Below the pieces are notes generated by a model. The model saw nothing but the letters and a program-made list of their open reading frames with translations. It was not told the origin of the DNA and ran no database searches. DNA of 64,000 bases, taken from Sideroxydans sp. GTDB lineage: Bacteria; Pseudomonadota; Gammaproteobacteria; Burkholderiales; Gallionellaceae. Of the stretch, positions 5,096-57,102 are shown one piece after another. The translations under genes were made by a program, and so were the position numbers. Position 1 is the stretch's first letter, and every line of letters starts with the position of its first letter. The DNA is taken from contig JAQTTU010000011.1 of assembly GCA_028710605.1 (NCBI GenBank), positions 62,001 to 126,000 of the forward strand, written 5' to 3'.

Positions 5096-5105
5096 GTGTT
5101 CTAAG

Positions 5106-6056: not shown

Positions 6057-6099
6057 GGCACCCATCCTTGCAAAAATGCGGGCTTATTTGCCCAAGCAA

Positions 6100-6210
6100 C
6101 CGTTCGGGTTATCAGTGAAACACCGGCTCGACGCTCCTTGCTCTCCCACGGGCTTGGTGTCCCAAGGGTTAATCGAGCTGCCGAGCCGGGCGAGACTAAA
6201 TTAACTACCT
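6100..6210 (-). ncRNA. Candidate IS110 bridge RNA region
   Basis: Non-coding stretch upstream of the transposase start. It can fold into an outer 8-bp stem (6123-6130 with 6182-6189, CCGGCTCG/CGAGCCGG) enclosing a 5-bp hairpin (6153-6157 with 6162-6166, CTTGG/CCAAG). IS110-group elements are known to encode a bridge RNA in this position. Limits and loops were not defined; low confidence. Confidence 0.3.
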
Positions 6211-6291
6211 ACAGCAAATTCATGTCCAGCAAAACGAAACATACAAGGGTTAGGGTGGGGGAACGCTCTTCGATTGCCACTCATCTTTCTC

Positions 6292-6470
6292 CGTTCGTGC
6301 TGAGCATGTCGAAGCATGAGCGGATTTTTACAAATTCAAAACCTACCTCAGACCGTTCGTCCTGAGCCTGTCGAAGGATGGGCGAAGCCCGCTGGTTTTT
6401 TTGTAGATCAAAACCGACCCCGTTCGTGGTGAGCCCTTCGATACACTCAGGACAGGCTTGTCGAACCACA
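6292..6470. repeat. Family H repeats (CGTTCGTCCTGAGCCTGTCGAAGG type)
   Basis: Three tandem or inverted copies of a motif of the form CCGTTCG-CTGAGC-TGTCGAAG. Related copies occur near 7985-8050, 41428, 41853-41908 and 57505-57532. Confidence 0.75.
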
Positions 6471-6484
6471 AGTAGCTGCGAGCA

Positions 6485-6692
6485 CAGATTGCCGGGGGTT
6501 GCCCGGCGGCAAGTCACTTTTTCTTGCTTCGCCAAGAAAAAGTAACCAAAAAGAAGGCGACCCCGGTGCGCCGCCCACTTCGTGGGTACCCTGCGTTGCT
6601 CGACTGGTCAGGCGGCTGCGGAACTCGCTACGCTCAAACAGTCCTCGCCGAAATCCCCTGACCAGCCTGCGCTACTCGGCGGCGTACAGGGG
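6485..6692. repeat. Family I long inverted repeat, left copy
   Basis: About 208 bases matching the reverse complement of 7764-7972 with a few differences. Open frames inside it (KSLFLASPRKSNQKEGD type) are repeat-derived and not real genes. The pair encloses the cargo gene at 6774. Confidence 0.85.
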
Positions 6693-6773
6693 TTGGAAAG
6701 GCTAAAATTCAAAACACCGCTTGGGCACTTTGTGCCCAAGCTACTTAACTTATGAAGGATTGGGAGAATTCGA

Positions 6774-7463
6774 ATGAATTTTTTGCATCTCTTAACAATA
6801 ACAACATTGCTATTTGAAATACCCGCCGTAGCTCATTCCAGCGATGAATGTGATTCAAAAGATACTCTCAAGTCGCATGCTGGGCATTATTCAAGAAAGG
6901 CATTTTGGGAAAATCTACCCAAACTAAAAAATTGGCCTGTTACTTTGGAAAAATTTAATAGCTATGACTCAAGCGCAATCAATATTTCTGCAAATGGCGG
7001 TATCGCGTCTATTGATGGCTGGCATGAAATTGGCGCTGTCACATGCGTCCATTTTCAAGGTAAAGAGTTGTGGGCAAAGAATCCCTACGTTTCCACAAAT
7101 GCCTGGATAGGACCATTTATTCATGTTGGCATGGCCAATACCGATGACATCAGTTACTTCGACAGAATATTCGGCGAGGGCTGCTACACAAGCAACAAGC
7201 AAGAACGCTGGTGCTTCCAATCTGGCACCATCATTATTGATTCAGAACGTCATAGTGCCAAACTCGTACTCGATACATCTGAAATGCCAACCTATGGAAA
7301 TTCTCTCTCCATCGATAAAAAGGATGGGTTCTTGGTTTTCGTTCCAAGCAGTGATGGATGGAAAATATTTCAAGACACGTTCGTTTCGGCGGACGGGCAT
7401 AAAGACATTGATCCTGCTAATTCTTTACCTTGGCGAGTTCTCAAACGCTTGCATGAGAAGTGA
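6774..7463 (+). CDS. Unknown exported protein, cargo between inverted repeats
   Basis: 229 residues with a signal peptide-like start (MNFLHLLTITTLLFEIPAVAHS). No recognised domain; four to five Cys in the mature part (ECDSKD, VTCVHF, EGCYTS, RWCFQS) could form disulfides in the periplasm. Codon use is strongly AT-rich compared with all neighbours, which points to recent acquisition. It lies alone between the two family I inverted repeats. A GGGAG site lies about 9 bases before the ATG. Confidence 0.7.
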   Translation: MNFLHLLTITTLLFEIPAVAHSSDECDSKDTLKSHAGHYSRKAFWENLPKLKNWPVTLEKFNSYDSSAINISANGGIASIDGWHEIGAVTCVHFQGKELWAKNPYVSTNAWIGPFIHVGMANTDDISYFDRIFGEGCYTSNKQERWCFQSGTIIIDSERHSAKLVLDTSEMPTYGNSLSIDKKDGFLVFVPSSDGWKIFQDTFVSADGHKDIDPANSLPWRVLKRLHEK

Positions 7464-11164: not shown

Positions 11165-11222
11165 GTAGGTGCGAATTCATTCGCACGCGCAACGTGGAAT
11201 GTGCGAATGAATTCGCACCTAC
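11165..11222. repeat. Family A palindrome, copy 2
   Basis: GTAGGTGCGAATTCATTCGC and mirror; lies between nifX and the rseC-like gene. Confidence 0.9.
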
Positions 11223-22863: not shown

Positions 22864-23829
22864 TTATACCGAATACGGCTGCGCCACCCACTCCTTAATC
22901 AACGCCGCCTCGGTATCCGGCAAATAGCTGAACCCGCCCTCCAGATCGCGCGCCACGGCGTAGGCGATTTTGGGCGGGGTGAGGGTGCTGGCGACGAGGT
23001 GGAAGTACCAGGCTGAGGGGTAGCCGGCGGCGCGGTCGAAGGCTTGCAGTTGGGCGAATAATTCCAGGCCGGCAAGTTCGATGTTCCACTGGAACGGTTT
23101 GAGTTCGCGCGCGCGGCGCGACACGAGGGCGAGCGAGGTGACGGGGTTGCGGTATCGGTCCTGGTGTTCGCGCAGGGCGGCGATCCAGTGGTCGCCGAAG
23201 TGGCCCCTGCTGGCGGCGCTGCTGTGCGTCCATTCTTTTAGCATGCGCGGCAGCTTGGCGCTTTGGCCTTCGCCCAGCGATACTTTGGCGATGCTTTGGC
23301 GCATGTCGAGCAGGCGGCGGAAGCGGTAGCGCGGCGCGCCCAGCGGTTGTGCGTCCAACTCGACCGGGGCGATGGGTTCGAGCAGTTCCTGCAAGTCTTC
23401 GGGCGGGTGGTCGCTGTCTATCAGTTGGCGATCCAGCACTTCCTGCAATTCTTCCACTTCCAGTTGCAGGAAATCCGCCGGAGCCTTGCCGTAGGCGGCG
23501 ACGAAATAATGCGTGCGTCCGGTGAAGCGCGACACTTGCAAGCCGCTGTCCTCATGGCGTTCCAGCAGCTCGTGCATGTCGCCGCCGCACTTTTTCAGTT
23601 CCGCCTTCGCCCACGCTTCGAGATTGTCGGCGACGCGCGATCCGTCCGCCGCGATCACGCCGCCGGGGCGATACCAGCCGCCGCGATTGAGCACATAACG
23701 GAAGGTGCAACCGTTGCAAACGCGGTTGGCGATCTCCAGCAAAGTGCTGTGGTGCGGGCGCGGCGCGATGGCTTCGATTTCCTTCGCCAGATTTTGTAGG
23801 GTGGTTTCGTCCGGCGTGTAAATACTCAT
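22864..23829 (-). CDS. Unknown nif-regulated protein, partner of the LRV protein
   Basis: 321 residues, no signal peptide. N-terminal half has Cys38 and Cys41 (RVCNGCTFRYVLNRGG), a Cys-x2-Cys pair that could join a metal centre, and FTGRTHYFVAAYGKAPADFLQLEVEELQEV. Overlaps the LRV gene by four bases, so both are made together from the NifA-controlled promoter at 24627. No family name is known to me; cytoplasmic. Confidence 0.8.
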   Translation of the reverse strand: MSIYTPDETTLQNLAKEIEAIAPRPHHSTLLEIANRVCNGCTFRYVLNRGGWYRPGGVIAADGSRVADNLEAWAKAELKKCGGDMHELLERHEDSGLQVSRFTGRTHYFVAAYGKAPADFLQLEVEELQEVLDRQLIDSDHPPEDLQELLEPIAPVELDAQPLGAPRYRFRRLLDMRQSIAKVSLGEGQSAKLPRMLKEWTHSSAASRGHFGDHWIAALREHQDRYRNPVTSLALVSRRARELKPFQWNIELAGLELFAQLQAFDRAAGYPSAWYFHLVASTLTPPKIAYAVARDLEGGFSYLPDTEAALIKEWVAQPYSV

Positions 23830-24590
23830 TTCTCTTCTCCTAAAAATTCATCCAGCCGCTGTCGCACCACAGCCCGCACATCCGGCTCGACATCGTCCAC
23901 CAGCTCAGCGATGGCTTCGACCGGCGCGCGCAGCACCGCTTCCCGCCGCACCAGCCAATCTTCATCCGCCAGCAATTTCATCGCGTCGTCCGGCAGCATG
24001 CGTGCGGCGATGATGCGGCGCACTTCCACATCGTCGTCTTTCATCAGCAGGCTCAAGGCAAACGGCGGTATGCGCCGCGCCACTTCCTTGCGCACTTCCC
24101 TGTCCGCGTCCTGTGCCATACCGCGCAAATGCCCGTGCGGCAAGCGCTTCGCCACTTGCAGGCGCACCAGATAATCCGCGTCGCCGATCAATTCGTGCAG
24201 CCGTTGCGGCGGCAAGCGGTTGGCCACCGTCATGCGCACTTCGCGGTCCGGGTCATGCAAATAGCCGTCCAGTTCGTCCATGGGCAAGCGGCTCACCAGC
24301 ACGCGGCGCACCACTTCATCCGCATCGCGCGGCATGCGGCGCAGCGCTTCCAGCGGCGCATAGCGCACGGCGATGGCGCGCCGTTCCCAGAAATCATCGG
24401 CCAGATAACCCTCGGCCAGTTGCGGATGGCGCCGCAAAAAGCGGTCGATCTGCCGCCCGCTCTGCGCCATCAAACACACATCGCCCGGCGCGCATTTTTC
24501 CTGCGCCAGCAGCGCGCGATGCGGACACGTTGCGCAATTGGCAAGCATGACCTCGGTCAACGGCGACGCATCGGAGCGGCGTTGCGGCAT
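23826..24590 (-). CDS. 4Fe-4S leucine-rich-repeat-variant (LRV) protein
   Basis: 254 residues. Cys19, Cys22, Cys33 and Cys39 (NCATCPHRALLAQEKC-APGDVC) form the 4Fe-4S site of the LRV protein known from Azotobacter vinelandii. The rest is a chain of ~24-residue repeats of the form DADxxVRxxVAxRLP (about eight, residues 60-245). Cytoplasmic; function unknown in the family although nif-linked. First gene of a two-gene operon behind a sigma-54 promoter. Confidence 0.9.
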   Translation of the reverse strand: MPQRRSDASPLTEVMLANCATCPHRALLAQEKCAPGDVCLMAQSGRQIDRFLRRHPQLAEGYLADDFWERRAIAVRYAPLEALRRMPRDADEVVRRVLVSRLPMDELDGYLHDPDREVRMTVANRLPPQRLHELIGDADYLVRLQVAKRLPHGHLRGMAQDADREVRKEVARRIPPFALSLLMKDDDVEVRRIIAARMLPDDAMKLLADEDWLVRREAVLRAPVEAIAELVDDVEPDVRAVVRQRLDEFLGEEK

Positions 24591-24626
24591 ATTGTTACCT
24601 TATTTCAATTCTCTGGATGAATACCA

Positions 24627-24641
24627 GCAACCAGCGTGCCA
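24627..24641 (-). promoter_or_regulatory. sigma-54 promoter of LRV operon
   Basis: Minus-strand TGGCACGCTGGTTGC; exact -24/-12 element 36 bases before the ATG. Confidence 0.9.
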
Positions 24642-24714: not shown

Positions 24715-24730
24715 TGTAGCGATTGCGACA
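24715..24730 (-). promoter_or_regulatory. NifA upstream activator site
   Basis: TGTAGCGATTGCGACA, about 75 bases upstream of the sigma-54 element. Confidence 0.8.
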
Positions 24731-24752: not shown

Positions 24753-24810
24753 GTAGGTGCGAATTTATTCGCACGAATTATGAACAACGTGCGAATGAAT
24801 TCGCACCCAC
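24753..24810. repeat. Family A palindrome, copy 3
   Basis: GTAGGTGCGAATTTATTCGC with mirror ending CACCCAC. Between the LRV promoter region and modD. Confidence 0.9.
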
Positions 24811-24882: not shown

Positions 24883-25716
24883 TCAGTCGCGAATAAATGT
24901 CACCCGCACATCCTTGGGCGGCGCGGTATAGGGTGCGGAGGTCACCAGCAAGTCGGCTCCCGCGCGCGCATAGGCGAACGCGTTGTCGGCACACACGCCC
25001 CCCGCCGCTGCCAGCACGACATGCAACCCGGCGTTGTTCAGCGCATTGCGGCAATCTGCAAGCGCCCCGGGTGAGAATTTTTCCAGTTGCAGCACGTCCG
25101 CACCGGCCCGCGCCCAAAGGATCGCTTCTTCGATATTGGCCACTTCCACCGCCAGCTTCTTTTCCGGTTCGGCGCGCTTGAACCTTGCCACGGTGCATGC
25201 CTGAGATTCGTCCAGATAGAGGCGGTGTTCGGCAAACAGCAGCAGCGATTCAGACAAGCCGAGCCGGTGCATGGTCGCACCTCCCGCGCGCACGGCTTTG
25301 ACCGACAGCGCCTTGGTGCCCGGCACATTTTTGCGCGTGCATGCCACGGCAACCGGTGCGGCAGCTTTCACGATGGCCGCCGTGGCGGTGCTGATACCGC
25401 TCGCCCATTCCACCAATACCTGAGCTGTTTTCCATGCCCGATGCAGCATCTGCGCATCCCCCCGCGCTTGCAGCAACAATTCGTCTTGGCTGACCGCCAG
25501 CCCGGACCGGACGGACATTTTGACTTCAGCGCCACACAACGCGAACAGGCGTGCCGCTTCTTCGATGGCGCACACCACCATGTCTTGTCGCGCGCAAAAT
25601 TCCAGACGCGCGGGGCGTTGTCCGATGCCGGAAGTTTCAGTGGTGAGGTCGCCACACGGCACATCGTCGCGCAGCAAACGGGAAAGCTCTTCATCGCTTA
25701 AGGCCAAATAGCTCAT
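24883..25716 (-). CDS. modD: ModD, molybdenum-operon protein
   Basis: 277 residues. Related to quinolinate phosphoribosyltransferase (NadC): LLRDDVPCGDLTTE at the N-terminus, ACTRKNVPGTKALSVKAVRAGGATMHR with the conserved His/Arg, and LAAAGGVCADNAFAYARAGADLLVTSAPY. ModD proteins lie at the end of mod operons; their exact reaction is unsettled. Overlaps modC by four bases. Confidence 0.88.
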   Translation of the reverse strand: MSYLALSDEELSRLLRDDVPCGDLTTETSGIGQRPARLEFCARQDMVVCAIEEAARLFALCGAEVKMSVRSGLAVSQDELLLQARGDAQMLHRAWKTAQVLVEWASGISTATAAIVKAAAPVAVACTRKNVPGTKALSVKAVRAGGATMHRLGLSESLLLFAEHRLYLDESQACTVARFKRAEPEKKLAVEVANIEEAILWARAGADVLQLEKFSPGALADCRNALNNAGLHVVLAAAGGVCADNAFAYARAGADLLVTSAPYTAPPKDVRVTFIRD

Positions 25717-26786
25717 GCCATCAGCGCCACGCTCTTCACTTGCGCACAGACGAACATGCCTTCAGTCAGTCCGAGCTGGTCGCGCGAGCGGCGGGTGATG
25801 CGCGACAGCAGCGTGTGCGCGTCGCCGACTTGCAGGCGCAGCATGACTTTGTGCGGGCCTTCGTCGCGGATTTCCGCGATGCGCGCATTCAAAATATTGT
25901 TGATGCTCGACCCTTGCGGCGGCTGGGTGGCGATACTCACGTCGCGCGCCAGCACTCTTGCCCGCACGCGCGTGCCGAACGGCTGCTCCACTTTGCCCAC
26001 CCACAATTGCCCGCCGGGGAAATCCAACCGCGTGAGGTGATAGGTTTCGTCCTGCTGCGCCACGCTCGCTTCGAGCACCGCGCCCGCGTCGTCAAAATGC
26101 GCCAGCGGCAGATCGAGGCGCGCCAGCGTTTCGTGCAATGCGCCGCTGGCGATGACGCGGCCTTTTTCCAGCAGCACCAGATGGTCGGCCAGCCGCGCCA
26201 CCTCGTCCAGCGCGTGGCTGACGTACAGCACCGGGATGTTCAGTTCGCGGTGCAGTCGTTCCAGATAAGGAAGTATCTCCTGCTTGCTGGTGCTGTCCAG
26301 CGCGGACAGCGGTTCGTCCATCAGCAGGATGCGCGGACTGGTGAGCAGCGCGCGACCGATGGCCACGCGCTGGCGTTCGCCGCCGGACAATTTCGCCGGA
26401 TCGCCGCGCTCGATGAGTCGGCCCAAGCCCAGCCATTCCACCACCTGTTCCAGCGGCACCTTGCGCTCGGCGGGCGGCGTGCGCTTCAAGCCGTATTCCA
26501 GATTGGCGCGCACCGACAAGTGCGGGAACAGGCTGGCTTCCTGGAACACATAACCGAGCGGTCGCTGGTGCACTGGCAGGAACGTCTTTTCGTCCTGCCA
26601 GGTTGCGCCGTTCACCTGCAACGTGCCGCGCGCTTTTTCCAGTCCGGCGATGCAACGCAGCAACGTGGTCTTGCCCGAACCGGACGGACCGAACAGCGCG
26701 GTGACACCGACGGAAGGCGCGGTGAAAGAGGCATCGAGGGCGAAGGTGTCGAGTTGCATCTGGAATTGGGCGGAAATTTCAGACAT
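25713..26786 (-). CDS. modC: ModC, molybdate ABC transporter ATPase
   Basis: 357 residues. Walker A GPSGSGKT at residues 33-40, ABC signature LSGGERQ around 133-139, Walker B ILLMDEP around 153-159, and a C-terminal Mop/TOBE domain (SSINNILNARIAEI) that binds molybdate. The ATG at 26786 has GGAGG upstream, and this site is the edge of the family E repeat; a longer start lies inside the repeat. Acts with ModB at the inner membrane. Confidence 0.93.
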   Translation of the reverse strand: MSEISAQFQMQLDTFALDASFTAPSVGVTALFGPSGSGKTTLLRCIAGLEKARGTLQVNGATWQDEKTFLPVHQRPLGYVFQEASLFPHLSVRANLEYGLKRTPPAERKVPLEQVVEWLGLGRLIERGDPAKLSGGERQRVAIGRALLTSPRILLMDEPLSALDSTSKQEILPYLERLHRELNIPVLYVSHALDEVARLADHLVLLEKGRVIASGALHETLARLDLPLAHFDDAGAVLEASVAQQDETYHLTRLDFPGGQLWVGKVEQPFGTRVRARVLARDVSIATQPPQGSSINNILNARIAEIRDEGPHKVMLRLQVGDAHTLLSRITRRSRDQLGLTEGMFVCAQVKSVALMA

Positions 26787-26790
26787 ACAA

Positions 26791-26906
26791 AACCTCCACC
26801 ACAGAGACACAGAGACACAGAGAAAACCGAACCGAGAAAACCAAATCAATTTGACTTTGCTTTTGACTTTCTCTGTGTCTCTGTGTCTCTGTGGTGAATG
26901 GTTTTT
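26791..26906. repeat. Family E long palindrome, copy 2
   Basis: CACAGAG arms between modB and modC; supplies the modC ribosome site (TGGTGGAGG). Confidence 0.85.
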
Positions 26907-26912: not shown

Positions 26913-27599
26913 TCATTGCGTCACCCTCCACGACTTGCCGCCCGCCAGATACAACCCCAGCAGCACCACGAACGAGAACAGCACCATGCCGCCCGCCAGC
27001 CAGTGCGCCGCGCCGTATTCGATGGCTTCGACGTGGTTGTAGATGGCGACCGAGAGCACGCGCGTTTCGCCCTGAATGTTGCCGCCCAGCATCAGCACCA
27101 CGCCGAATTCGCCGACGGTGTGGGCGAAGGCGAGGATGGTTGCGGTGAGGAAGCCGGGGCGCGCCAGCGGCAGCGCCACGCTGAAAAACCTATCCCACGC
27201 ATTCGCGCGCAAAGTGGCCGCCACTTCCAGCGGGCGCTTGCCCATCGCCTCGAACGCGTTCTGGATCGGCTGCACCGCGAACGGCATGGAGAACAGCACC
27301 GAGCCGACCACCAGCCCGACAAAGGTGAACGGCAGCGTGCCGAGGTGCAACGCCGTGGTGAGTTTACCCACCAGCCCGTGCGGCCCCAGCAGCAACAGCA
27401 AGTAGAAACCCAGCACCGACGGCGGCAACACCAGCGGCAACGCCACCACCGCCGCCACCGGCCCCCGATACCATTTTTTGCTGTGCGCCAACCACCACGC
27501 CAGCGGCGTGACGATGAGCAGCAACAACACAGTGGTCACGCTGGCCAGCTTGAGCGTGAGCCAGACGGCTTGCAGGTCGGCGGGGTCGAGGGGGGGCAT
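26913..27599 (-). CDS. modB: ModB, molybdate ABC transporter permease
   Basis: 228 residues with about five membrane helices. The permease-ATPase contact loop [23 protein letters not shown] is typical of ModB. Encodes the membrane channel for molybdate. Second transport gene after modA, separated by a family D repeat. Confidence 0.93.
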
Positions 27600-27759: not shown

Positions 27760-28515
27760 TCACGGCATCTCATACCCGAAACTGCGGATGATCGCCGCCG
27801 CTTTGTCGCCCTTCAGGTATTGCAGGAATGCCTTGGCCGCCGCCTGATCTTTCGCGGCAGTCAGCATCACGGCGTTCTGCTTGATCGGGTTGTACATGTG
27901 CGCCGGCACGAGCCACCACGAGCCTTCGCTGACCTTGCCGTCCTTGGTGATCTGCGACAGCGCGACGAAGGCCATTTCGGCATTGCCGGAGGAGGCGAAC
28001 TGGTAAGTCTGGGCGATGCTTTCGCCGGTCACCAGCTTGCTTTGCACCACGTTCCACAAGCCCATTTCATCCAGCGTTTCTTTGGCCGCCAGCCCGTAAG
28101 GCGCGAGCTTGGGATCGGCGTAGGCCAGCTTGTTGTAATTGCCTTTGCGCAACACCGCGCCCTTGTCGTCCACGAATCCCGGCTGCGCACTCCACAGCAC
28201 CAGCTTGCCCAGCGCATACACGAAACGCGTGCTTTCGACCGCCAAGCCTTCCTCTCCCAACAGCTTGGGATTCTTTTCATCCGCCGCGAGGAATACGTCG
28301 AACGGCGCGCCCTGCTTGATCTGCGCGGTGAACTTGCCGCTGGAACCGAAGCTGAGCTTCACCGTGTTGCCCGTGTCTTTCTGGAACAACTCGGCAATCT
28401 GCTGCATAGGCGCGGTGAAATTTGCCGCCACCGCCGCGTTCACTTCTCCGGCATTAGCCACTTGCGCCACCGCTGCCAACAGCACACCCAACAAACTCAA
28501 CTTGATCGCCTTCAT
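27760..28515 (-). CDS. modA: ModA, periplasmic molybdate-binding protein
   Basis: 251 residues with signal peptide (cut after VANA). VNAAVAANFTAPMQQIAELFQKDTGNTVKLSFGSSGKF is a ModA hallmark; ligand loops around Ser (GSSGK), YGLAAKETL and C-terminal IIRSFGYEMP. Delivers molybdate to ModBC. First transport gene after modE. Confidence 0.93.
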   Translation of the reverse strand: MKAIKLSLLGVLLAAVAQVANAGEVNAAVAANFTAPMQQIAELFQKDTGNTVKLSFGSSGKFTAQIKQGAPFDVFLAADEKNPKLLGEEGLAVESTRFVYALGKLVLWSAQPGFVDDKGAVLRKGNYNKLAYADPKLAPYGLAAKETLDEMGLWNVVQSKLVTGESIAQTYQFASSGNAEMAFVALSQITKDGKVSEGSWWLVPAHMYNPIKQNAVMLTAAKDQAAAKAFLQYLKGDKAAAIIRSFGYEMP

Positions 28516-28683: not shown

Positions 28684-29490
28684 TTACGCATTCACCGCCA
28701 AAATCACGTGCGATGCCTTGATCAGCGCACATGCCTTTACACCTTCTTTCAAACCCAACGACTTCACGCTGTCGTTGGTGACAATCGCCACCACGGTCTT
28801 GCCGCCCGCCAGTTCGATGATGACTTCGCCGTTGACCGCGCCTTCGTTGCAGCGCACCACCGTGCCGTGCAGTTCGTTGCGCGCGCTGGTCTTGAAGCCG
28901 TCGGAAGTAGTCACGATCACCCACGGTGCTTTGATCAGCGCATACGCTTCCATGCCCACCTTCAAACCGAGATGCTCCACGCTTTCATTGGTGATGATCG
29001 CCGCCAGGCTCTGCCCGCTGCCGATGTCCAGCACCACTTCCGCGTTGATCGGTCCCGATTTGATGCTTTTGATCTTGCCCAGATACTGGTTGCGCGCACT
29101 CGTCTTCATATCGAATCTCCTTATCATGTGGTAATACTCATCGAAGTCTTGCATGATGCGGCCCAGCGACTTGAGAACCTGCTCGCGCTCCTGCTCCAGA
29201 CGGCGGTAAGCGCCCACCACGCGCCGACCGTACACCGTGAGCGTGGTGCCGCCGCCTTTCTGGCCGCCGGTCTTGCGCTCCACCAGCGGCTGGTCGGACA
29301 GGTTGTTGATCGCCTCCACCGCCTCCCACGCCGCCTTGTAGCTCATGCCCATCGCGCTGGCCGCCGCCGTGATCGAACCGGTCGCGTCGATGCGTTCCAG
29401 CAATTCCAGATGATCCCAGCGTCTGCCCTTGGCAATCTTCAGCTTGGGTAAAACACTCAGTTCTGTTTTCTCTGCCACCGCTTGCGCCAT
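28684..29490 (-). CDS. modE: ModE, molybdate-responsive regulator
   Basis: 268 residues from ATG at 29490. N-terminal winged helix-turn-helix (RRWDHLELLERIDATGSITAAASAMGMSYKAAWEAV), then two Mop domains (KTSARNQYLGKIKSIKSGPINAEV and KTSARNELHGTVVRCNEGAVNGEV) that bind molybdate. Represses Mo transport genes when Mo is plentiful. A longer open frame upstream lacks the usual N-terminus and is not used. A possible operator lies at 29503-29527 near its own start. Confidence 0.92.
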   Translation of the reverse strand: MAQAVAEKTELSVLPKLKIAKGRRWDHLELLERIDATGSITAAASAMGMSYKAAWEAVEAINNLSDQPLVERKTGGQKGGGTTLTVYGRRVVGAYRRLEQEREQVLKSLGRIMQDFDEYYHMIRRFDMKTSARNQYLGKIKSIKSGPINAEVVLDIGSGQSLAAIITNESVEHLGLKVGMEAYALIKAPWVIVTTSDGFKTSARNELHGTVVRCNEGAVNGEVIIELAGGKTVVAIVTNDSVKSLGLKEGVKACALIKASHVILAVNA

Positions 29491-29502: not shown

Positions 29503-29527
29503 CGTTATAACCTTGCACCACCCAACG
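29503..29527. promoter_or_regulatory. Weak ModE-like box at modE
   Basis: CGTTATAACC with an AACG end 25 bases across. Resembles the CGTTATA-N-TAACG geometry of the E. coli ModE site but imperfect. Confidence 0.3.
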
Positions 29528-29636
29528 ATGAGCAAAAGCGATGCCACACAGCGCCTCGCCACCGCCCATCCCGCACCGCCATTTGCTTCCCGCCGATTTC
29601 CAGAATTCGCCGTGCCGCCCCGCAAAGCCCGCCGCT

Positions 29637-29652
29637 TGTAGCGTGTGCCACA
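29637..29652 (+). promoter_or_regulatory. NifA upstream activator site
   Basis: TGTAGCGTGTGCCACA, about 85 bases before the sigma-54 promoter at 29738. Confidence 0.8.
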
Positions 29653-29664
29653 TTTTGGCGCGTT

Positions 29665-29688
29665 CGTTACAACCTTCACGCTACAACG
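29665..29688. promoter_or_regulatory. Possible ModE operator
   Basis: CGTTACAACCTTCACGCTAC followed by AACG: 24 bases with CGTT and AACG ends, the same length as the E. coli modA operator (CGTTATAT-N8-ACATAACG). It lies between the NifA site and the sigma-54 promoter. Confidence 0.4.
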
Positions 29689-29737
29689 CTTTGGCGCTAT
29701 CTGCATGAAAGCCGCGCCCCGCCGCATTCATCCGCAC

Positions 29738-29752
29738 TGGCACGCCAATTGC
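29738..29752 (+). promoter_or_regulatory. sigma-54 promoter of TonB operon
   Basis: TGGCACGCCAATTGC; exact -24/-12 element 64 bases before the TonB receptor ATG. Confidence 0.88.
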
Positions 29753-29815
29753 AGAAACATGCTAGCGTTATGCACCAGAACACATAACGAAACCATTATC
29801 CCATAGGAGCGACAA

Positions 29816-31789
29816 ATGAACAAAAACCGGACGACAAAACCGCTGTGGCTGGCTTGTATGCTGGCTTTGACCACTTCTGCCACGGCGGAAACCTTCAATC
29901 TGGGCGAAGTCACGGTGACCGCCCCCCGTTCGCAAGTGGGCGAAATCGGCGAAGAGCAGACAGCTTCCGCCGTTACCCGCAAAGAGATCAAGCAATTCAA
30001 CCGCGACAATGTCGGCGACGCGCTGAATCTGCTTTCCGGGGTCACGCTGACCAACAGCGGCATGCGCAACGAGAAGATGGTGTTCGTGCGCGGCTTCGAC
30101 GCGCGCCAGGTGCCGCTGTTCATCGACGGCATCCCGGTTTATGTGCCGTATGACGGCTATCTGGATTTGAACCGTTTCACCACCGCCGATCTGGCCACCA
30201 TTCAGGTGTCCAAGGGTTTCAGTTCGGTCGCTTTCGGGCCGAATACGCTGGGCGGCGCGATCAATCTAATTTCGCGCAAACCGACATCCAAATTCGAGGG
30301 CGACGCGTCGCTGGGTTTCGCTTCCGGCAAAGAAAAGCAAATGCAGGCGAATGTCGGCAGCAATCAGGGGCTGTGGTACGTGCAGGGCGGTGTCTCGTAT
30401 TTGCAAAGCGACAACTACCCGCTTTCCTCCAACTTCACGCCGACCGCCACCGAAGATGGCGGCGCGCGCAACAACTCCTATCGCAAAGACGACAAGATTT
30501 CGCTCAAGCTCGGCTTGACTCCCAACTCGGGCGACGAATACGCATTGAGCTTCTACAAACAAAACGGCGAAAAAGGGCAACCGCCATCCGTCGGTACGGG
30601 AGTGAAATACTGGAAATGGCCGAAGTGGGATAAACAAAGCCTGTATTTCGTGTCCAGAATCGCGCTGGGCGAAAAGGAAACGCTTAAGGCGCGGCTGTAT
30701 TGGGACAAGTTCGACAACGGCCTGGACATCTACACCAACGATACCTATACGACCATCGCCAACCCCGTGGCCGACCGCAGCACTTACGACGACAGCACGC
30801 GCGGCGGTTCGGTCGAACTGGGCAGCACGCGCTTGCCGGGTCAGGAAATCAAATTCGTCGCCCACTACAAGGTGGACAAACATATCGCCCGCGACGGTGC
30901 ATCAACCGTCACCGAATCGTTCCGCGACACGCTTTCCTCCTACGCCGCCGAAGATAATATCTGGGTCAATCCGGCGCTGATGCTTTCGCTGGGCATCACC
31001 CGTCACACCCTGACTCCGCAGGAAGTTTACAAATCCGGCAGCCCGTTCACATTGCCCGATGCAAAATCGGCCACCGACGGACAAGCCGGACTGTTTTACG
31101 ACTACAGCAGCGCCGCCCGCCTTTACGCCACACTCGCGCAGAAATCGCGTCTGCCGACACTGAAAGACCGCTACTCGGCCCGGTTCTCCACTTACATCGA
31201 AAACACCGCGCTGCGCCCGGAGCAGTCGGCCAATTACGAAATCGGCTATCAGGGCAAGCTGTGGCATGAGGCCAAAGCGGAAGCGGCGGTGTTCTACAGC
31301 GACATCACCGACAAGATACAAACGGCATACCAGACCGGCTCGACTTCCTGCACCGCGAGCAGCAAATGCCAGATGCAAAACATCGGCAACGTGCAAGCAT
31401 CCGGCATCGAGCTGGGGCTGAACAGCCCGCTGGCGGCCTGGCTGGAACTGGGCGGCAACTTCACCTATACCCGCCTGAAAAATGTCAGCGATCCGGCCAC
31501 CCAGCTGACCGGCGTGCCGCGCCAAAAACTGACCGCACACGCCCTGCTCAAACCCGCCGAGACGCTGGACCTGATCGCCTTCGCCGAAGCCAACAGCCGC
31601 CGCTGGGCATCCAACACCGTCGAACTGGCCGGGTTCACCACGCTGAATTTGAAAGCGGTTTACCGCATCACCAACACCGTTTCGACCGAAGCGGGTGTCA
31701 ATAACTTATCCGACAAAAACTACGCACTGGCCGACGGCTACCCCAGCGCCGGGCGCACGTATTTCGCCAACGCGATGATGAAGTTTTAG
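29816..31789 (+). CDS. TonB-dependent outer-membrane receptor
   Basis: 657 residues. Signal peptide (cut after ATA/ETF), plug domain from about residue 30 (EVTVTAPRS, GDALNLLSGVTLTNSG, FVRGFDARQVPLFIDGIPV, GFSSVAFGPNTLGGAINLISRKP), then a beta-barrel ending in Phe (ANAMMKF). Ribosome site AGGAG. The NifA-type control region and position beside modE suggest uptake of a Mo or Fe chelate. First of four genes (receptor, binding protein, di-heme protein, porin). Ligand not shown by sequence. Confidence 0.9.
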   Translation: MNKNRTTKPLWLACMLALTTSATAETFNLGEVTVTAPRSQVGEIGEEQTASAVTRKEIKQFNRDNVGDALNLLSGVTLTNSGMRNEKMVFVRGFDARQVPLFIDGIPVYVPYDGYLDLNRFTTADLATIQVSKGFSSVAFGPNTLGGAINLISRKPTSKFEGDASLGFASGKEKQMQANVGSNQGLWYVQGGVSYLQSDNYPLSSNFTPTATEDGGARNNSYRKDDKISLKLGLTPNSGDEYALSFYKQNGEKGQPPSVGTGVKYWKWPKWDKQSLYFVSRIALGEKETLKARLYWDKFDNGLDIYTNDTYTTIANPVADRSTYDDSTRGGSVELGSTRLPGQEIKFVAHYKVDKHIARDGASTVTESFRDTLSSYAAEDNIWVNPALMLSLGITRHTLTPQEVYKSGSPFTLPDAKSATDGQAGLFYDYSSAARLYATLAQKSRLPTLKDRYSARFSTYIENTALRPEQSANYEIGYQGKLWHEAKAEAAVFYSDITDKIQTAYQTGSTSCTASSKCQMQNIGNVQASGIELGLNSPLAAWLELGGNFTYTRLKNVSDPATQLTGVPRQKLTAHALLKPAETLDLIAFAEANSRRWASNTVELAGFTTLNLKAVYRITNTVSTEAGVNNLSDKNYALADGYPSAGRTYFANAMMKF

Positions 31790-31799
31790 GAGAGCTGAC

Positions 31800-33197
31800 A
31801 TGACGAATTTGATAAAAGCATGCGATGGCGTTTCGTTCAATTTATGGAACGGAATCACTTGTGTAGGTGCGAATTCATTCGCACGATTCACGAGCGATGT
31901 GCGAATAAATTCGCACCTACAAAGACTTCCTCGTGCCCTCTTTGCCGCCTGTTTGCTGCTGATTTCCTCACTGGCCAGCGCCACCGAGAAGGTGGTGGTG
32001 CTGACCAGCTACCCGCAGGAAGTCATCACGCCGTTCGAGGCGGCATTTGAACAAGCCTATCCGCAATACCGACTGGAAATCCTGTGGCGGCAATCGCGCG
32101 ATGCCATGAGCTTTCTGCACCAGAAGCACAGTCCGGTGGATGTCTATTGGACTCCGGCACAACGCAATTTCGCCGTGCTGGCCAAGGAAGGCGCGCTGCG
32201 CAAACTGGACATCGACTTGCGCGGTTTGCCGAAGAAGATCGGCGGTTTTCAAATCTCCGATGCCGACGGCTATTACGTCGCCAGCGAAACGGCGGGTTAC
32301 GGCATGGCTTACCACCCCGCCGAATTGAAACGGCTAGGCCTGCCCGTGCCAAGCGATTGGCAAACGCTGACCGCCCCCGCGTTCAGCGGCCACGTGGTGA
32401 TGCCCATCCCGTCCAAAGTTGGTTTCGCACCGATGCTGGTGGACACCCTGCTACAGGGTTACGGTTGGGAGCAAGGTTGGAACGTGTTGGTGCAAGTGGC
32501 TGCCAATTCAACGCTGGCCGCTGCCGGATCAACTTTCATTTCGGACGACGTGGGCAGCGGGCGCGCGGCGGTGGGCATGACCATGGATTTCTTCGCCATC
32601 TCGGCCATTGCCAACGGCAAACCCCTGCGTTTCACCTACCCGAAAAAAGTCGGATATTCACCCGCGCACATCGGCATCTTCAACGAAGCGACCAACCTCG
32701 AAGGCGCGCGCGCCTTCGCCAACTTCGTGTTGTCGAAGCAGGGACAAAAGCTGCTGTTCCATCCCGACATCCGCAAACTGCCGGTGCGCCCCGCCGTGTA
32801 TGCCAACAAACCGCATGGCTATTTCGACCCGTTCGCCGCCGCAAAAAAAGCTTCCTACGACTACGACGTGAGCTCCGGTTTGCTGCGGCAGGAAGTGGTC
32901 GGAGCCATGTTCGACGCGCTGATCACGCGCCATCAGGCGGAACTGAAAACGATGTGGCAAACGATCCATCAAGCCGAACAGAAATCGCCCAAGGACGCAC
33001 GCTTGCAGGAAGCGCGGAGGCACGCCAACTGGCTGCCGCTGACGGCGGCGCAAGCCAACGATTCAGCGCTGCAACAAACCTTCATCAAACGCGACAACCG
33101 CACCGCAGCGTTGGAACAGCAATGGGATGCAGACATCGCCCAACACTATGCGCAAGCCACGCAGATTGCGCGGGAAATATTGGGAGCGAAACCATGA
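31800..33197 (+). CDS. Periplasmic solute-binding protein with repeat-derived N-terminus
   Basis: 465 residues, 10 bases after the receptor gene. The binding-protein fold starts after residue ~60 (EKVVVLTSYPQEVITPFEAAFEQAYP, PVDVYWTPAQRNFAV, DDVGSGRAAVGMTMDF); the last ~130 residues are an extra helical region. It resembles Fe(III)/thiamine-type ABC binding proteins, but no permease or ATPase is nearby. A family A palindrome is read in frame between the ATG and the hydrophobic signal stretch (ALFAACLLLISSLASA), so the n-region is unusually long. A GTG inside the repeat could be the true start. Ligand likely a metal or chelate (inferred). Confidence 0.82.
   Translation: MTNLIKACDGVSFNLWNGITCVGANSFARFTSDVRINSHLQRLPRALFAACLLLISSLASATEKVVVLTSYPQEVITPFEAAFEQAYPQYRLEILWRQSRDAMSFLHQKHSPVDVYWTPAQRNFAVLAKEGALRKLDIDLRGLPKKIGGFQISDADGYYVASETAGYGMAYHPAELKRLGLPVPSDWQTLTAPAFSGHVVMPIPSKVGFAPMLVDTLLQGYGWEQGWNVLVQVAANSTLAAAGSTFISDDVGSGRAAVGMTMDFFAISAIANGKPLRFTYPKKVGYSPAHIGIFNEATNLEGARAFANFVLSKQGQKLLFHPDIRKLPVRPAVYANKPHGYFDPFAAAKKASYDYDVSSGLLRQEVVGAMFDALITRHQAELKTMWQTIHQAEQKSPKDARLQEARRHANWLPLTAAQANDSALQQTFIKRDNRTAALEQQWDADIAQHYAQATQIAREILGAKP
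31863..31920. repeat. Family A palindrome, copy 4, inside a coding sequence
   Basis: GTAGGTGCGAATTCATTCGC and mirror, read as VGANSFAR...RINSHLQ. Confidence 0.92.
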
Positions 33198-34639
33198 AAC
33201 CTGAAACAAATTTACAGCAAGGAACTTCCCTTGTAGGTGCGAATTCATTCGCACGATTGTCACGTCATGTGCGAATGAATTCGCACCTACAAAAACCGCC
33301 ATTGTTGTTTTTACTGTTGTGTGCAGCGACCTTCGCCCAGCTAACCTTCGCCGACGAAGCCGCCATCACCACCGACAACGCCACACGCGAAGCCTACACG
33401 CAGCCCATCCCGGCGCTGCCCGAAGCCGACCGCCCGCAATTCCTCAAAGGGCGCGGATTGGTGCGGCAAGTGTGGGTGATTCCGCCCAGCGAGAACCGCG
33501 AGATCGCCGGGCTCGGGCCGTTGTACAACCGCATCTCGTGCATCGCTTGTCACGCCGCCAACGGGCGCGGCTTCGCGCCAGCCACGCCGCAGGAACCCAT
33601 GCGTTCCATGCTGGTGCGGCTGAGTGTGCCGGGCACGGATGCGCACGGCGGGCCGCTGCCGCATTCGGCTTACGGCGGACAGTTGAACGAAAACGGCGTG
33701 CCCGGCGTAGCGGGCGAAGGCCGCGCAGAAGTGCGCTACACCGAACATGCGGTGAAGCTCAACGGCGGCGAGAAAATCAGGCTGCGCGAGCCGCACATCA
33801 CCTTCGTCGATCTGGCTTACGGCGACTTTCCGCCAGACATGCTGACCTCGCCGCGCATCGCCCCTCCTCTCTACGGGCTGGGCTTGCTGCAAGCCGTGGC
33901 GGAAGCGGACATCGTGGCGCTGGCCGATGCGCCCAAACCGCAAGGCATCAAGGGCAAAGTCAACCGCGTGTGGGATGAGGCGCAACAAAAGACAGTGTTG
34001 GGGCGCTTTGGATTGAAAGCCAACCAGCCCAATCTGCGCCAGCAAATCGCCGGGGCATATCTGGGCGACATGGGCATCACCTCGCCGCTGTTCACGCAAG
34101 AAAACTGCATGCTGGCGCAGGACGCTTGCCGCAAATCGCCTTCCGCCGGAACGCCGGAGTTGAACAAGGCGCAACTGGATGCGTCCGAGTTTTATCACCT
34201 GGCCTTGGCCGCGCCGCGTCAGCGCGATGCGGACAACAAGCTAGTGCAACGCGGAGCAAAGTTGTTCGAGCAAGCGCAATGCAGCGCCTGCCACGTGCCG
34301 CAACTGAGGACCGGCGACTTCGCCGCGCTGCCCGCCTTGTCGCAGCAAACCATCCATCCCTACACCGACCTGCTGCTGCACGACATGGGCGAAGCGCTGG
34401 CCGACCACCGACCTGACTATCTCGCCACGGGCCGCGAATGGCGCACGCCGCCGCTATGGGGCATCGGCCTCGCACAAAAAGTCGAACCGCGCGCCGGTTT
34501 CCTGCACGACGGACGCGCCAGAACTTTGCTGGAAGCGGTGTTGTGGCATGACGGCGAAGGAGCGGCGGCGGCACAAGCCGTCAAAGCCATGCCGCGCAAA
34601 GACAGGACAGCTTTGCTCGTATTCCTGGAATCTCTGTGA
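33194..34639 (+). CDS. Di-heme oxidoreductase (DUF1111) exported protein
   Basis: 481 residues, overlapping the preceding gene by four bases (ATGA). Two c-type heme motifs CIACH (NRISCIACHAANGRGF) and CSACH (QCSACHVPQL) place it in the di-heme oxidoreductase/putative peroxidase family; C-terminal residues FLHDGRARTLLEAVLWHDGEG are typical. Family A repeat is read in frame near the N-terminus; an ATG inside the repeat would give a compact signal peptide MNSHLQKPPLLFLLLCAA. Could reduce or oxidise the imported metal complex; inference only. Confidence 0.85.
   Translation: MKPETNLQQGTSLVGANSFARLSRHVRMNSHLQKPPLLFLLLCAATFAQLTFADEAAITTDNATREAYTQPIPALPEADRPQFLKGRGLVRQVWVIPPSENREIAGLGPLYNRISCIACHAANGRGFAPATPQEPMRSMLVRLSVPGTDAHGGPLPHSAYGGQLNENGVPGVAGEGRAEVRYTEHAVKLNGGEKIRLREPHITFVDLAYGDFPPDMLTSPRIAPPLYGLGLLQAVAEADIVALADAPKPQGIKGKVNRVWDEAQQKTVLGRFGLKANQPNLRQQIAGAYLGDMGITSPLFTQENCMLAQDACRKSPSAGTPELNKAQLDASEFYHLALAAPRQRDADNKLVQRGAKLFEQAQCSACHVPQLRTGDFAALPALSQQTIHPYTDLLLHDMGEALADHRPDYLATGREWRTPPLWGIGLAQKVEPRAGFLHDGRARTLLEAVLWHDGEGAAAAQAVKAMPRKDRTALLVFLESL
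33233..33290. repeat. Family A palindrome, copy 5, inside a coding sequence
   Basis: GTAGGTGCGAATTCATTCGC and mirror, read as VGANSFAR...RMNSHLQ. Confidence 0.92.
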
Positions 34640-34710
34640 AAGGAACGCGATCACCCATTCAAGTCCGGCCTGAATTCACATTAATTTTTTTCAACAAAAA
34701 GGAGTTTCAA

Positions 34711-35835
34711 ATGTTTAAAACCCGTTTCAATTATTTCATCGCCGCCTCTTTCTTTGCCGCCGCTCCCGCGCTGGCCGACACGGCCAACGTCTCCATCTAC
34801 GGCGTGGCGGACGTGTCTTACGATTCTTTCAAAACCGGCAACAGCACCGCCGGCATCCAGGGCACGACCATCAACAAAGTTTCGAGCAACGCTTCGCGTA
34901 TCGGCTTTAAAGGCGCGGAAGAGATGGGCGCGGGGTTCACTGCGAACTGGCAGATCGAGTCGCTGGTGGCACTGGACAATGCGGGCGGCACGTTTGCCAC
35001 GCGCAACAGCTTTGCCGCCGTGACCAACAAAAGTTACGGCACGCTGTTGCTGGGTCGCTACGACACGCCGTTCAAGATCATCACGCGCAAGCTGGACAAC
35101 TTTGCCGACAGCATCGCCGATAACCGCAGCCTGTTCGGCACGGTGAGCGGCGTGTCGGCGAGCAAATCTTTTGTCACCAAGCAGCCCGATGTGCTGTCAT
35201 ACACCTCGCCGAATTTCGACGGCTTCGTGGCTTCGATCGCGCGCGTGAATCTGGCTGAAACCACGGTCATCAAAGCCTCGGACAAAACCGCCAGCGCGAC
35301 TTCGCTCTCCGCCGCCTACGACAACGGCACGCTGTACGGCGCATTGGGCTACGAGCTGCACAAGCTCGACACGGTGCGCGTGGGCGGCGAGGAAAAGGCG
35401 TGGAATGTTGCGCTGGCCTACAAGGTGGAAGATTACGCACTGGCGCTGGCGTATGAAAAAACCGGCGATACGCTGGGCGGCGCGGCGGCACCGACCGCCT
35501 GTGCGGCGCTGGCGGCGGGCGCGGATTGCATGGGGCACAGCGCGCTGTATGTCACCGGCAAATATCTGTTCGATGCCAACGCGCTCAAGATCGCCTACAC
35601 CAGAACCGGCAATCTGGGCGCTGCCGCCAACACCGGCGCAACCCAGCTCTCGCTCGGCTACGACCACCGCACCAGCAAACGCACCACGCTGTACGTGCTC
35701 TATACCAAACTGAGCAACGACAGCAATGCCAACTACGGACTGGGCAACGCTTCGTTCGCCTCCGCCGCCACCGCCTCCATCGGCGCGGGAGCCGATCCTT
35801 CCGCATTGAGCCTGGGCATGAAGCACGTGTTCTGA
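34711..35835 (+). CDS. Outer-membrane porin
   Basis: 374 residues. Signal peptide to ALA/DTANV, then the general Gram-negative porin pattern (NVSIYGVADVSYD, SRIGFKGAEEMGAGFTANWQIES, GTLLLGRYDTPFK) ending MKHVF with the terminal Phe. ATG at 34711 with AAGGAG upstream. Forms the end of the TonB operon, 71 bases after the di-heme gene; may have its own expression. Trimeric 16-strand porin expected. Substrate unknown, possibly molybdate or other anions. Confidence 0.88.
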   Translation: MFKTRFNYFIAASFFAAAPALADTANVSIYGVADVSYDSFKTGNSTAGIQGTTINKVSSNASRIGFKGAEEMGAGFTANWQIESLVALDNAGGTFATRNSFAAVTNKSYGTLLLGRYDTPFKIITRKLDNFADSIADNRSLFGTVSGVSASKSFVTKQPDVLSYTSPNFDGFVASIARVNLAETTVIKASDKTASATSLSAAYDNGTLYGALGYELHKLDTVRVGGEEKAWNVALAYKVEDYALALAYEKTGDTLGGAAAPTACAALAAGADCMGHSALYVTGKYLFDANALKIAYTRTGNLGAAANTGATQLSLGYDHRTSKRTTLYVLYTKLSNDSNANYGLGNASFASAATASIGAGADPSALSLGMKHVF

Positions 35836-36015: not shown

Positions 36016-36780
36016 TCACGGTATCTCGTAGCCGAACCCGCGCATCACCGCCCGCGCTTTCGCGCTCTTCAAAAAATCCAGAAGCGCCTTCGCCGCCGCC
36101 TTGTCTTTCGCCTTACTCAACAGCACCGCGCTCTGCCGGATAGGCTTGTGCATCTCGGGCGGCACTATCCACGATGAACCGGAAGTCAGCTTGCCGGCGC
36201 GCATCACCTGCGCCAGCGCGATGAACGCCAGATCGGCCTTCTCGCTCGCCGCCAGTTGGTAAGTCTCGATCACGCTTTCGCCCTTGCTCAGTTTTTCCTG
36301 AATCGCATTCCACATCGTCAGCTTGGTCAGCGTCTCTTTCGCCGCCACACCGTAAGGCGAATAGCGCGGATTGGCGATGGCCAGCGCGCTGAAATTTCCC
36401 TTGTTCAACACCGACGCTTTCTCATCCACCAGCCCCGGCTGCGCGCCCCACAACACCAGCCGCCCCGTGGCATACACAAAGCGCGAACCGCCCACCGCAA
36501 AACCATCCAGCATCAATTGCTTCGGCATCTCCTCGTCGGCGGAAAGGAACACATCGAACGCCGCACCGCTCCTGATTTGCGCATATAACTTGCCGCTCGC
36601 CCCCGGCGTGACTTTCAGCGTGTGCCCGCTCTCCTTCTGGAACAACACAGCGATGCGCTCCAACGGCGCGACGAAATCCGCCGCCACCGCCACACTCACC
36701 TCGGCCGCATTGACCGGCGAACTCAGCAGTCCGCACAACGTTAAGACCGCAACAGCAAAACTACGCAAAGAAATTGGCAT
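36016..36780 (-). CDS. modA: Second ModA-like molybdate-binding protein
   Basis: 254 residues with signal peptide (cut after VNA). Clearly ModA-related (VSVAVAADFVAPLERIAVLFQKESGH, YGVAAKETLTKL, ends MRGFGYEIP) but distant from the operon ModA. Transcribed alone. AGGAG before ATG 36780; a TTG at 36786 is not needed. No permease next to it, so it may use ModBC or a different oxyanion such as tungstate. Function thus tentative. Confidence 0.85.
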   Translation of the reverse strand: MPISLRSFAVAVLTLCGLLSSPVNAAEVSVAVAADFVAPLERIAVLFQKESGHTLKVTPGASGKLYAQIRSGAAFDVFLSADEEMPKQLMLDGFAVGGSRFVYATGRLVLWGAQPGLVDEKASVLNKGNFSALAIANPRYSPYGVAAKETLTKLTMWNAIQEKLSKGESVIETYQLAASEKADLAFIALAQVMRAGKLTSGSSWIVPPEMHKPIRQSAVLLSKAKDKAAAKALLDFLKSAKARAVMRGFGYEIP

Positions 36781-36961
36781 CCTCAACTCCTGACTCGAAT
36801 GGGGGCAATGATAGCAAGCATGAGGAAGCGCTGCGAAAAGTATCTAGGCGAATATCCACAATGACCGCCAATAGGGGAGCGGGTACGGTACAACCTGAAC
36901 AACACCAGATCGGCAACGCTTTGCCCCTAAGTCTTCCCCTAAAATTGAGGAGTTCTCTACC

Positions 36962-57043: not shown

Positions 57044-57102
57044 TGTAGGTGCGAATTTATTCGCACGCTCAACGTGTTATGTGCGAATAAATTCGCACCT
57101 AC
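57044..57102. repeat. Family A palindrome, copy 6
   Basis: GTAGGTGCGAATTTATTCGC and mirror between the SIR2-like and hemerythrin genes. Confidence 0.92.

Follow-up and report, generated by a model that had tools for sequence, protein, structure and literature searches.

A TonB receptor operon divergent from modE in Sideroxydans, a candidate system for molybdenum acquisition at the outer membrane

The operon and its genes

A stretch of 64,000 nucleotides from Sideroxydans sp. (contig JAQTTU010000011.1, positions 62,001 to 126,000, of assembly GCA_028710605.1, which has 3.36 Mb in 35 contigs), called the window in what follows, carries, within a nif region, a four-gene operon divergently oriented to modEABCD. 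On the forward strand, the operon encodes a TonB-dependent outer-membrane receptor (29816-31789; Pfam plug domain 1.4e-20, TonB barrel 1.4e-30), a periplasmic solute-binding protein with an FbpA/AfuA-like fold (31800-33197; SBP_bac_6 1.9e-18), a di-haem oxidoreductase of the DHOR/DUF1111 family with two CxxCH motifs (33194-34639; PF06537 5.8e-87), and a porin of the Gram-negative porin family (34711-35835; Porin_4 1.8e-38), for which GTG 34636 is an alternative start. The genes are closely packed: 10 bases separate the receptor gene from that of the binding protein, the latter overlaps the DHOR gene by 4 bases, and 71 bases precede the ATG of the porin. The receptor, the binding protein and DHOR are called the triad below. 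A sequence-only reading had already recognised the four genes next to modEABCD; its coordinates are right, Pfam matches were obtained for all four and profile matches back the mod genes. The results presented here indicate that the operon is very probably under molybdenum control, probably exerted by ModE, and that its role is likely to be the acquisition of a molybdenum species across the outer membrane and through the periplasm.

Predicted regulatory sites between modE and the receptor gene

The start of modE lies at 29490 and that of the receptor gene at 29816. Six predicted regulatory sites are found in between. Their conservation was followed in nine close genomes, this one (G000) included, whose binding proteins are at least 72% identical; counts out of eight refer to those, again with this one, that have the divergent arrangement and enough flanking sequence, G019 being ended by its contig. 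The receptor operon is preceded by a sigma-54 promoter, TGGCACGCCAATTGCA (29738-29753, forward strand), that fits the strict consensus in 8/8 close genomes, which bears out the earlier claim of an exact sigma-54 promoter at this place. Just past the predicted start site, a ModE-like box, CGTTATGCACCAGAACACATAACG (29766-29789), matches CGTTATN12ATAACG exactly and is also present in 8/8. Towards modE, another sigma-54 promoter, TGGCATCGCTTTTGCT (29531-29546, reverse strand), is a consensus match seen by eye in the sequences of 8/8 close genomes, and a ModE-like box of 24 or 25 bases, CGTTATAACCTTGCACCACCCAACG (29503-29527), stands at the predicted start site of the modE operon, with CGTTAT and AACG halves that are invariant in 9/9 aligned regions. 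Both outer boxes would thus cover or touch predicted start sites, about 12 bases past each -12 element. Between the two sigma-54 promoters lies a predicted NifA upstream activator site (UAS), TGT-N10-ACA (29637-29652), found in 8/8 close genomes, and a central ModE-like box (29665-29688), which reads CGTT-N16-AACG in 7/8 and is degenerate in G023. NifA-type sites are usually located some 80-150 bases upstream of the -24/-12 element; the spacing between the UAS and TGGCACGCCAATTGCA is 85 bases, in agreement with this geometry.

Some of these motifs are frequent enough to arise by chance. TGTN10ACA occurs 12 times in the window, where 10.4 occurrences are expected. It is therefore uninformative by itself and was rejected as stand-alone evidence; what is retained from the sequence-only reading is the presence of the site and its maintenance in the close genomes. 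With up to two mismatches, CGTTATN12ATAACG has 2 matches in the window, both at this locus, versus 1.28 expected, so that the central box, which has two mismatches, is weak alone. This box had been proposed as the 24-base CGTT...AACG operator of ModE type. Its conservation is clear, but it is one of three boxes and not the best of them, and it was rejected as main operator because the box at 29766-29789 matches better and is better placed. The latter, the box at the modE start and the sigma-54 site facing modE had all been overlooked. The exact pattern occurs at a single place in the 3.36 Mb assembly, that at 29766-29789, and at one more place with one mismatch. As the reversed control pattern, when as many as one mismatch is allowed, gives 10 matches on each strand, a count in which exact matches are not separated, it is the exactness and the position of the box that matter, rather than the tally of the pattern. 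For the sigma-54 pattern TGGCAYN5TTGCW, 4 matches are found in the window versus 0.24 expected, and two of them are located in the gap between modE and the receptor gene. On the whole, conservation, and not the chance counts of single sites, carries the case for the predicted control.

Conservation and exchange of genes in close genomes

The triad is divergent from modE in 8/8 close genomes with sufficient flank. When nine regions were aligned (seven with the triad and two with the porin only, without G072), the invariant columns were found mainly in the predicted regulatory sites. All nine close genomes have nifA, and 8/9 have nifD. The exception, G021, is a Sideroxydans metagenome-assembled genome (MAG) whose locus (L043) keeps nifA and the NifA and sigma-54 sites and gives no match to nifD or nifE. 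Its contig ends shortly past the porin; the missing genes may reflect loss or an assembly gap, which this contig end makes indistinguishable.

The porin follows the triad in 4/8 close genomes (G000, G015, G021 and G077), and no porin match occurs in the stretches of the other four. Fourteen relatives, a subset of the triad-less genomes that carry modE and, in 13/14 cases, nifD on the same contig, were also considered, and no match to the triad genes was obtained in their fetched stretches. Three of the fourteen (G025, G035 and G069) have the porin alone directly behind a sigma-54 site and a start-site box, with a UAS recognised by eye. Because the porin here replaces the triad behind the same control elements, it appears to belong to this control unit independently of the triad. 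In G077, the porin is equipped with a separate TGT-N10-ACA and a separate ModE-like box (L064, 12741-12882).

The receptor differs between some close genomes. Compared with G000, the binding proteins of G023, G072 and G077 show 82, 79 and 73% identity, whereas their receptors show only 47, 34 and 47% identity to the G000 receptor. A different receptor type is common to G023 and G077 (71%), and G072 has a third one. One periplasmic pair combined with exchanged receptors would fit the use of different chelates.

Distribution and association with ModE and nifD

The closest relatives of the binding protein come mostly from Sideroxydans, Sideroxyarcus, Gallionella and Gallionellaceae. Scanning of contigs gave 38 loci, from which L095 (a 31% partial match in Spirochaetales) was dropped as spurious. 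A DHOR match stands beside the binding protein in 37/37 of the remaining loci, and a receptor similar to that of the window is present in 33/37. Carriers are found across beta- and gammaproteobacteria, with and without nitrogenase, and include Methylobacillus, Methylobacter (with Methylobacter marinus), Methylomonas, Methylicorpusculum, Derxia, Herbaspirillum autotrophicum, Rugamonas, Azoarcus (with Azoarcus sp. L1K30) and Rhodocyclaceae, as well as one MAG labelled Verrucomicrobiaceae. Next to the triad, a modE- or Mop-like match occurs in 18/37 loci. The modE, modABC, triad and modD-like genes of Azoarcus sp. L1K30 all run in one direction. Neighbouring genes were also clustered; the clusters present in at least three non-Gallionellaceae loci correspond to the triad, the mod genes and ABC ATPases, a second TonB-receptor type (four loci), Methylobacillus synteny, and two more clusters of three loci each. 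At L060, from a MAG labelled Methylophilaceae, a second and more distant pair of binding protein and DHOR lies just upstream of the triad (4512-7147).

The 37 loci belong to 36 host genomes, L076 and L080 coming from one genome and L080 being omitted from the ModE and nifD counts. A ModE-family match (1e-12) was found in 35/36 hosts versus 144/299 relatives. The single host without a match, G299, shares its nifD places with G019, a genome that is 62% complete. The ModE frame exceeds 240 residues in 27 of the 35 hosts; in the other eight, namely five Methylobacillus (L067, L068, L069, L092 and L093) and the hosts of L074, L084 and L087, the sole match comes from a short frame, of 118-160 residues. 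As for nifD, it is present in 20/36 hosts, in one of them as fragments only, and 16/36 have no nifD at 1e-100. Taken together, these counts show that the cluster is not confined mainly to genomes devoid of nif and mod genes; they also led to rejection of nitrogenase as the general purpose of the system. The Rhodoferax MAG of L078 has nifA and no nifD match.

Within the relatives, 16 genomes were counted as having the triad. There were 10 other binding-protein matches; five of these, on examination, turned out to be transporter loci of the ordinary kind, where permease-like and ATPase-like matches are present, and the remaining five were counted as non-triad unexamined. ModE is present in 15/16 triad genomes versus 129/283 others (Fisher p 1.3e-4, kinship uncorrected). 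G033 was scored nifD-negative in the Fisher tests despite nifD fragments (as G318) and nifE.

ModE-like and Fur-like boxes across loci

Scans for boxes were made without L058, L076, L077 and L095. A model built from eight Gallionellaceae sites, applied without the six Gallionellaceae loci, finds the best site of the locus in the 500 bases that precede the operon in 13/28 other loci; the score of L090 in this test is an artefact of Ns. Among 500 column-permuted models the mean was 1.6 and the largest value 11, none reaching 13, and random 500-base windows gave a mean of 0.8 and a maximum of 4. Two consensus sequences served as yardsticks in 34 loci (27 other loci, six of Gallionellaceae and the window, L090 being omitted). 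The E. coli ModE operator has its unique or near-unique best site upstream in 15/27 other loci and 6/7 Gallionellaceae, hence in 21/34 in all, while the Fur consensus has its best site upstream in just 2/34.

ModE-like boxes at locus rank 1 or 2 are also found in nifD-negative hosts: Methylobacillus (L068, L092 and L093), Burkholderiaceae bacterium PBA (L081), Rugamonas (L089), Burkholderiales MAGs (L082 and L088) and, with a low score of 4.7, Herbaspirillum autotrophicum (L087). Since ModE-like boxes extend to non-diazotrophs and Fur-like ones are rare, molybdenum control looks like the general feature, and the NifA switch like an addition made by diazotrophs. The idea of a dual NifA and ModE control linked to molybdenum, put forward in the sequence-only reading, is thus supported by conservation, but its specificity for nitrogenase is not, given the boxes of Methylobacillus, Burkholderiaceae bacterium PBA, H. 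autotrophicum and Rugamonas.

No upstream ModE-like box was found at some loci, L060, L072 and L078 among them. At L066 and L094, modABC lies directly upstream in the same direction as the triad, and the triad may share the mod promoter. In Derxia and two other genomes, the second TonB-receptor type, which is the larger one, is found in the vicinity of the triad or of the pair of binding protein and DHOR (L070 683-2962, L073 189-2613, L085 13810-17651 and L086 14437-17298). The locus-best ModE-like box is located 190 (L073) and 62 (L085) bases before the frame of this receptor and, in L085, between modE and the receptor. That the second type stands behind its own best boxes at loci where the usual receptor has none would strengthen the link with molybdenum.

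Properties of the proteins

The structure model of the binding protein (pLDDT 92.7) matches AfuA, P5PA, ferric-binding proteins and the metal-citrate protein MctA (AfuA 4r72, TM 0.68 over the query; HitA, E 1.9e-15), and has the two-domain fold of the FbpA type. In FbpA, two adjacent tyrosines are iron ligands. The profile alignment places Phe207-Phe208 of the present protein, a pair that is invariant in 33/33 sequences, opposite the Tyr-Tyr of Moraxella FbpA; the structure matches include the solved FbpA mutants Y195A and Y196A. The protein has no match to TIGR01256 (ModA) at E 0.001, while both modA genes of the window match, and its profile meets the molybdenum binding protein 4kd5 over 30 residues only (6.7e-5). 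It is nearest to binders of sugar phosphates, pyridoxal phosphate and metal-citrate, and a 2-aminoethylphosphonate model is far below its cut-off. For the receptor, the best models are those of haem and siderophore receptors, all below cut-offs among the matches listed.

Both CxxCH motifs of DHOR are invariant in 29/29 sequences. The fold search gave only weak matches with low TM (5c2v, E 3.6e-5; 2c1u, E 3.8e-3), which amount to a weak likeness to di-haem cytochrome c peroxidase and the hydrazine synthase gamma subunit. DHOR is described as a peroxidase-type family, and a peroxidase-like attack on a ligand appears at least as likely as a reduction of molybdenum, the kind of reductive release that the sequence-only reading had suggested.

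The genes of these two proteins share a peculiarity. A palindromic element of about 58 bases, with GTAGGTGCGAATTCATTCGCAC arms, has six copies in the window (2216-2273, 11165-11222, 24753-24810, 31863-31920, 33233-33290 and 57045-57102) and occupies at least about 40 places in the genome, a lower bound given by 80 matches on the two strands together when 40 of the 134 candidates were scored. The copies at 31863-31920 and 33233-33290 lie in frame within the 5' end of a gene, that of the binding protein and that of DHOR respectively, and lengthen both signal peptides. At the related locus L059, the signal peptides of both proteins are ordinary, as judged by eye.

The nif and mod neighbourhood

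The operon is part of one neighbourhood that comprises nifN, nifE, modDCBAE, the receptor operon, a second modA, a NifX-like gene, nifK, nifD, nifH and a draT-like gene. Profile matches support nifN, nifE, nifK, nifD and nifH, with nifD of the molybdenum type; the NifX-like gene scores just under its cut-off and the draT-like gene matches PF07357. The mod genes are on the reverse strand. The product of modE (28684-29490) has a helix-turn-helix (HTH) and two Mop/TOBE domains and reaches 91.9 bits with TIGR00637 (cut-off 98.5), its Mop domain being over cut-off. Matches over cut-off were obtained for modA (27760-28515; TIGR01256 1.6e-74), modB (26913-27599; TIGR02141 9.7e-69), modC (25713-26849; TIGR02142 8.9e-138) and modD (24883-25716; TIGR01334 4.1e-78). 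The match of modC begins at residue 24, and its true start is probably about 60 bases further in. The second, orphan modA lies at 36016-36786 (reverse strand; TIGR01256 4.1e-59), and several relatives also have one close to the triad or to modE.

Two other features of the region may be mentioned. A molybdopterin oxidoreductase gene (15176-17968) lies between nifE and the mod genes; its best model, thiosulfate reductase PhsA, is under cut-off. A further sigma-54 site (24626-24641, reverse strand), with a TGT-N10-ACA 73 bases upstream (24715-24730), precedes the gene of an LRV-FeS protein (23826-24590), and several relatives have a similar sigma-54 site.

Relation to known systems

With the ModABC/ModE systems of E. 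coli and others, the operon, itself adjacent to and divergent from modEABCD, shares ModE-like boxes at a predicted start. However, ModABC is an inner-membrane molybdate transporter, whereas the present operon concerns the outer membrane and the periplasm. Closest in regulation is the mor operon of Rhodobacter capsulatus: morAB is activated by NifA and repressed by molybdenum via the ModE-like MopA/B (PMC6925177). NifA activation joined to ModE-type repression therefore exists for a second molybdenum-related operon. MorABC resembles ModABC, unlike the operon described here, and the words TonB, outer membrane and porin are absent from the main text of that report. Regarding molybdenum at the outer membrane, the H2-T6SS of Pseudomonas aeruginosa delivers it by way of IcmP, a protein of the outer membrane, and a secreted ModA (PMC8602904), and the operon that encodes IcmP, PA4370-PA4373, contains a DUF1111/EfeB-type protein and is Fur-regulated (PMC3143127). 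The need for delivery at the outer membrane and a DUF1111 protein are thus shared, which may be taken as a second hint, by analogy, of DUF1111 near molybdenum uptake. The Pseudomonas system differs by its imelysin, its secreted ModA and its Fur regulation, and no TonB receptor or FbpA-fold protein is named for molybdenum in the portions considered.

The receptor belongs to the same outer-membrane family as the TonB receptors that serve metals and metallophores (iron, copper with OprC, CntO). Unlike those systems, the operon has predicted ModE and NifA control, a binding protein without permease, and a di-haem DHOR. In its fold, the binding protein agrees with FbpA, AfuA, P5PA and MctA; it differs by Phe-Phe instead of Tyr-Tyr and by the absence of a permease or ATPase from the operon. 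The genome paper of Sideroxydans ES-1 places mod genes beside nif (PMC3770913), and modE and modABC are induced in Azoarcus BH72 (PMC8467165). The main texts of PMC8467165 and PMC3916325, both on Azoarcus BH72, and of PMC12727197 do not contain the word TonB, and a word search of PMC5343134 finds the ordinary word only, not ModE as a regulator. Titles and abstract openings among the matches listed, a scope that leaves subscription journals mostly outside, name no system with this gene set, in agreement with the sequence-only reading.

A model for molybdenum acquisition and its alternatives

The following model may be envisaged. From the arrangement of sites we infer that NifA and sigma-54 would turn the operon on during nitrogen fixation, and that molybdenum-loaded ModE, bound at the transcription start, would shut it when molybdenum suffices. 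The single NifA site between the divergent sigma-54 promoters would serve both modEABCD and the receptor operon, with a ModE box over each start. The receptor would pull scarce molybdenum (or tungsten) species, probably bound to an organic ligand, over the outer membrane by means of TonB energy, and the porin would give an additional passive entry. In the periplasm, the binding protein would hold the molybdenum complex or its ligand, and the di-haem DHOR would act on the complex by a redox change of the ligand or of the metal. The molybdate thus freed would be taken by ModA, present in two copies, to ModBC. As a general scheme, TonB-energised uptake of molybdenum chelates, with an FbpA-fold protein that holds the complex, a di-haem enzyme that frees molybdate in the periplasm by ligand attack or metal redox change, and a receptor swapped to suit the chelates, in beta- and gammaproteobacteria with and without nitrogenase, is proposed tentatively and stays rather doubtful in its entirety.

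Several observations weigh against molybdenum acquisition. Molybdenum control alone is not proof of a molybdenum cargo, and the predicted sites are consensus matches; with the Gallionellaceae model, 9/28 other loci rank worse than 3. The curated ModE cut-off is passed by just 13/36 hosts and 33/299 relatives, and the modE of the window falls below it too. The short ModE frames found in eight hosts fit an HTH only, with no room for Mop domains that sense molybdenum, so that molybdenum sensing is uncertain there. Within the relatives, nifD is associated with the triad about as strongly as ModE (10/16 versus 48/283, p 1.2e-4, kinship uncorrected). The operon has no gene for an inner-membrane permease or ATPase. 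At a threshold of 1e-20, no condensation domain of a non-ribosomal peptide synthetase is found in 8/8 Gallionellaceae (3/16 genomes overall have one), and no home-made peptide chelator is thus evident. Finally, deletion of R. capsulatus morABC has no effect on nitrogenase (PMC6925177), and DUF1111, linked to Fur-regulated imelysin operons, is a haem family otherwise tied to iron (PMC3143127).

This last link also belongs to the case for iron. One may imagine that a system for the uptake of iron was brought into the nif region to meet the large iron demand of nitrogenase, with an FbpA-type protein, a TonB receptor for siderophores or haem, and a DUF1111 protein as in imelysin/Efe loci. The ferric-binding-protein fold and the best models of the receptor agree with such a system. 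However, upstream Fur-like sites are few beside the ModE-like ones, Phe207-Phe208 stands where the tyrosine pair is expected, and the association with ModE holds in nifD-negative genomes too. Iron as cargo is therefore disfavoured and appears quite unlikely. It can also be asked whether ModE control serves a substrate that is used together with molybdenum enzymes, for instance an organic acid or a phosphonate-like compound, imported and oxidised with the help of DHOR. Molybdenum-responsive regulators do control genes of molybdenum enzymes in some bacteria, and the ligands of the nearest binding proteins would suit this explanation. On the other side, the boxes of the window are placed like repressor sites at predicted starts, as expected for a molybdenum-uptake gene, and modABC, the orphan modA and modD cluster with the operon; an enzyme substrate is accordingly held to be unlikely. 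A last explanation is that the cargo of the triad is a complex of tungstate or vanadate, or another metal chelate, molybdenum being a mere signal. ModE responds to tungstate too, and three receptor types for one periplasmic pair suggest several chelates, but the nifD of the window is of the molybdenum type, and this explanation seems very unlikely.

Acquisition of molybdenum is thus preferred, and its biological setting can be considered. Molybdenum limits nitrogen fixation in some settings, and it is expected to be scarce where iron oxides bind it. For the still little understood passage of scarce molybdenum through the outer membrane, the conserved set of receptor, binding protein and haem protein provides a concrete candidate, with named isolates among its carriers (Methylobacillus, Methylobacter marinus, Derxia, Herbaspirillum autotrophicum and Azoarcus sp. 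L1K30). The operon would probably represent an undescribed route of molybdenum scavenging.

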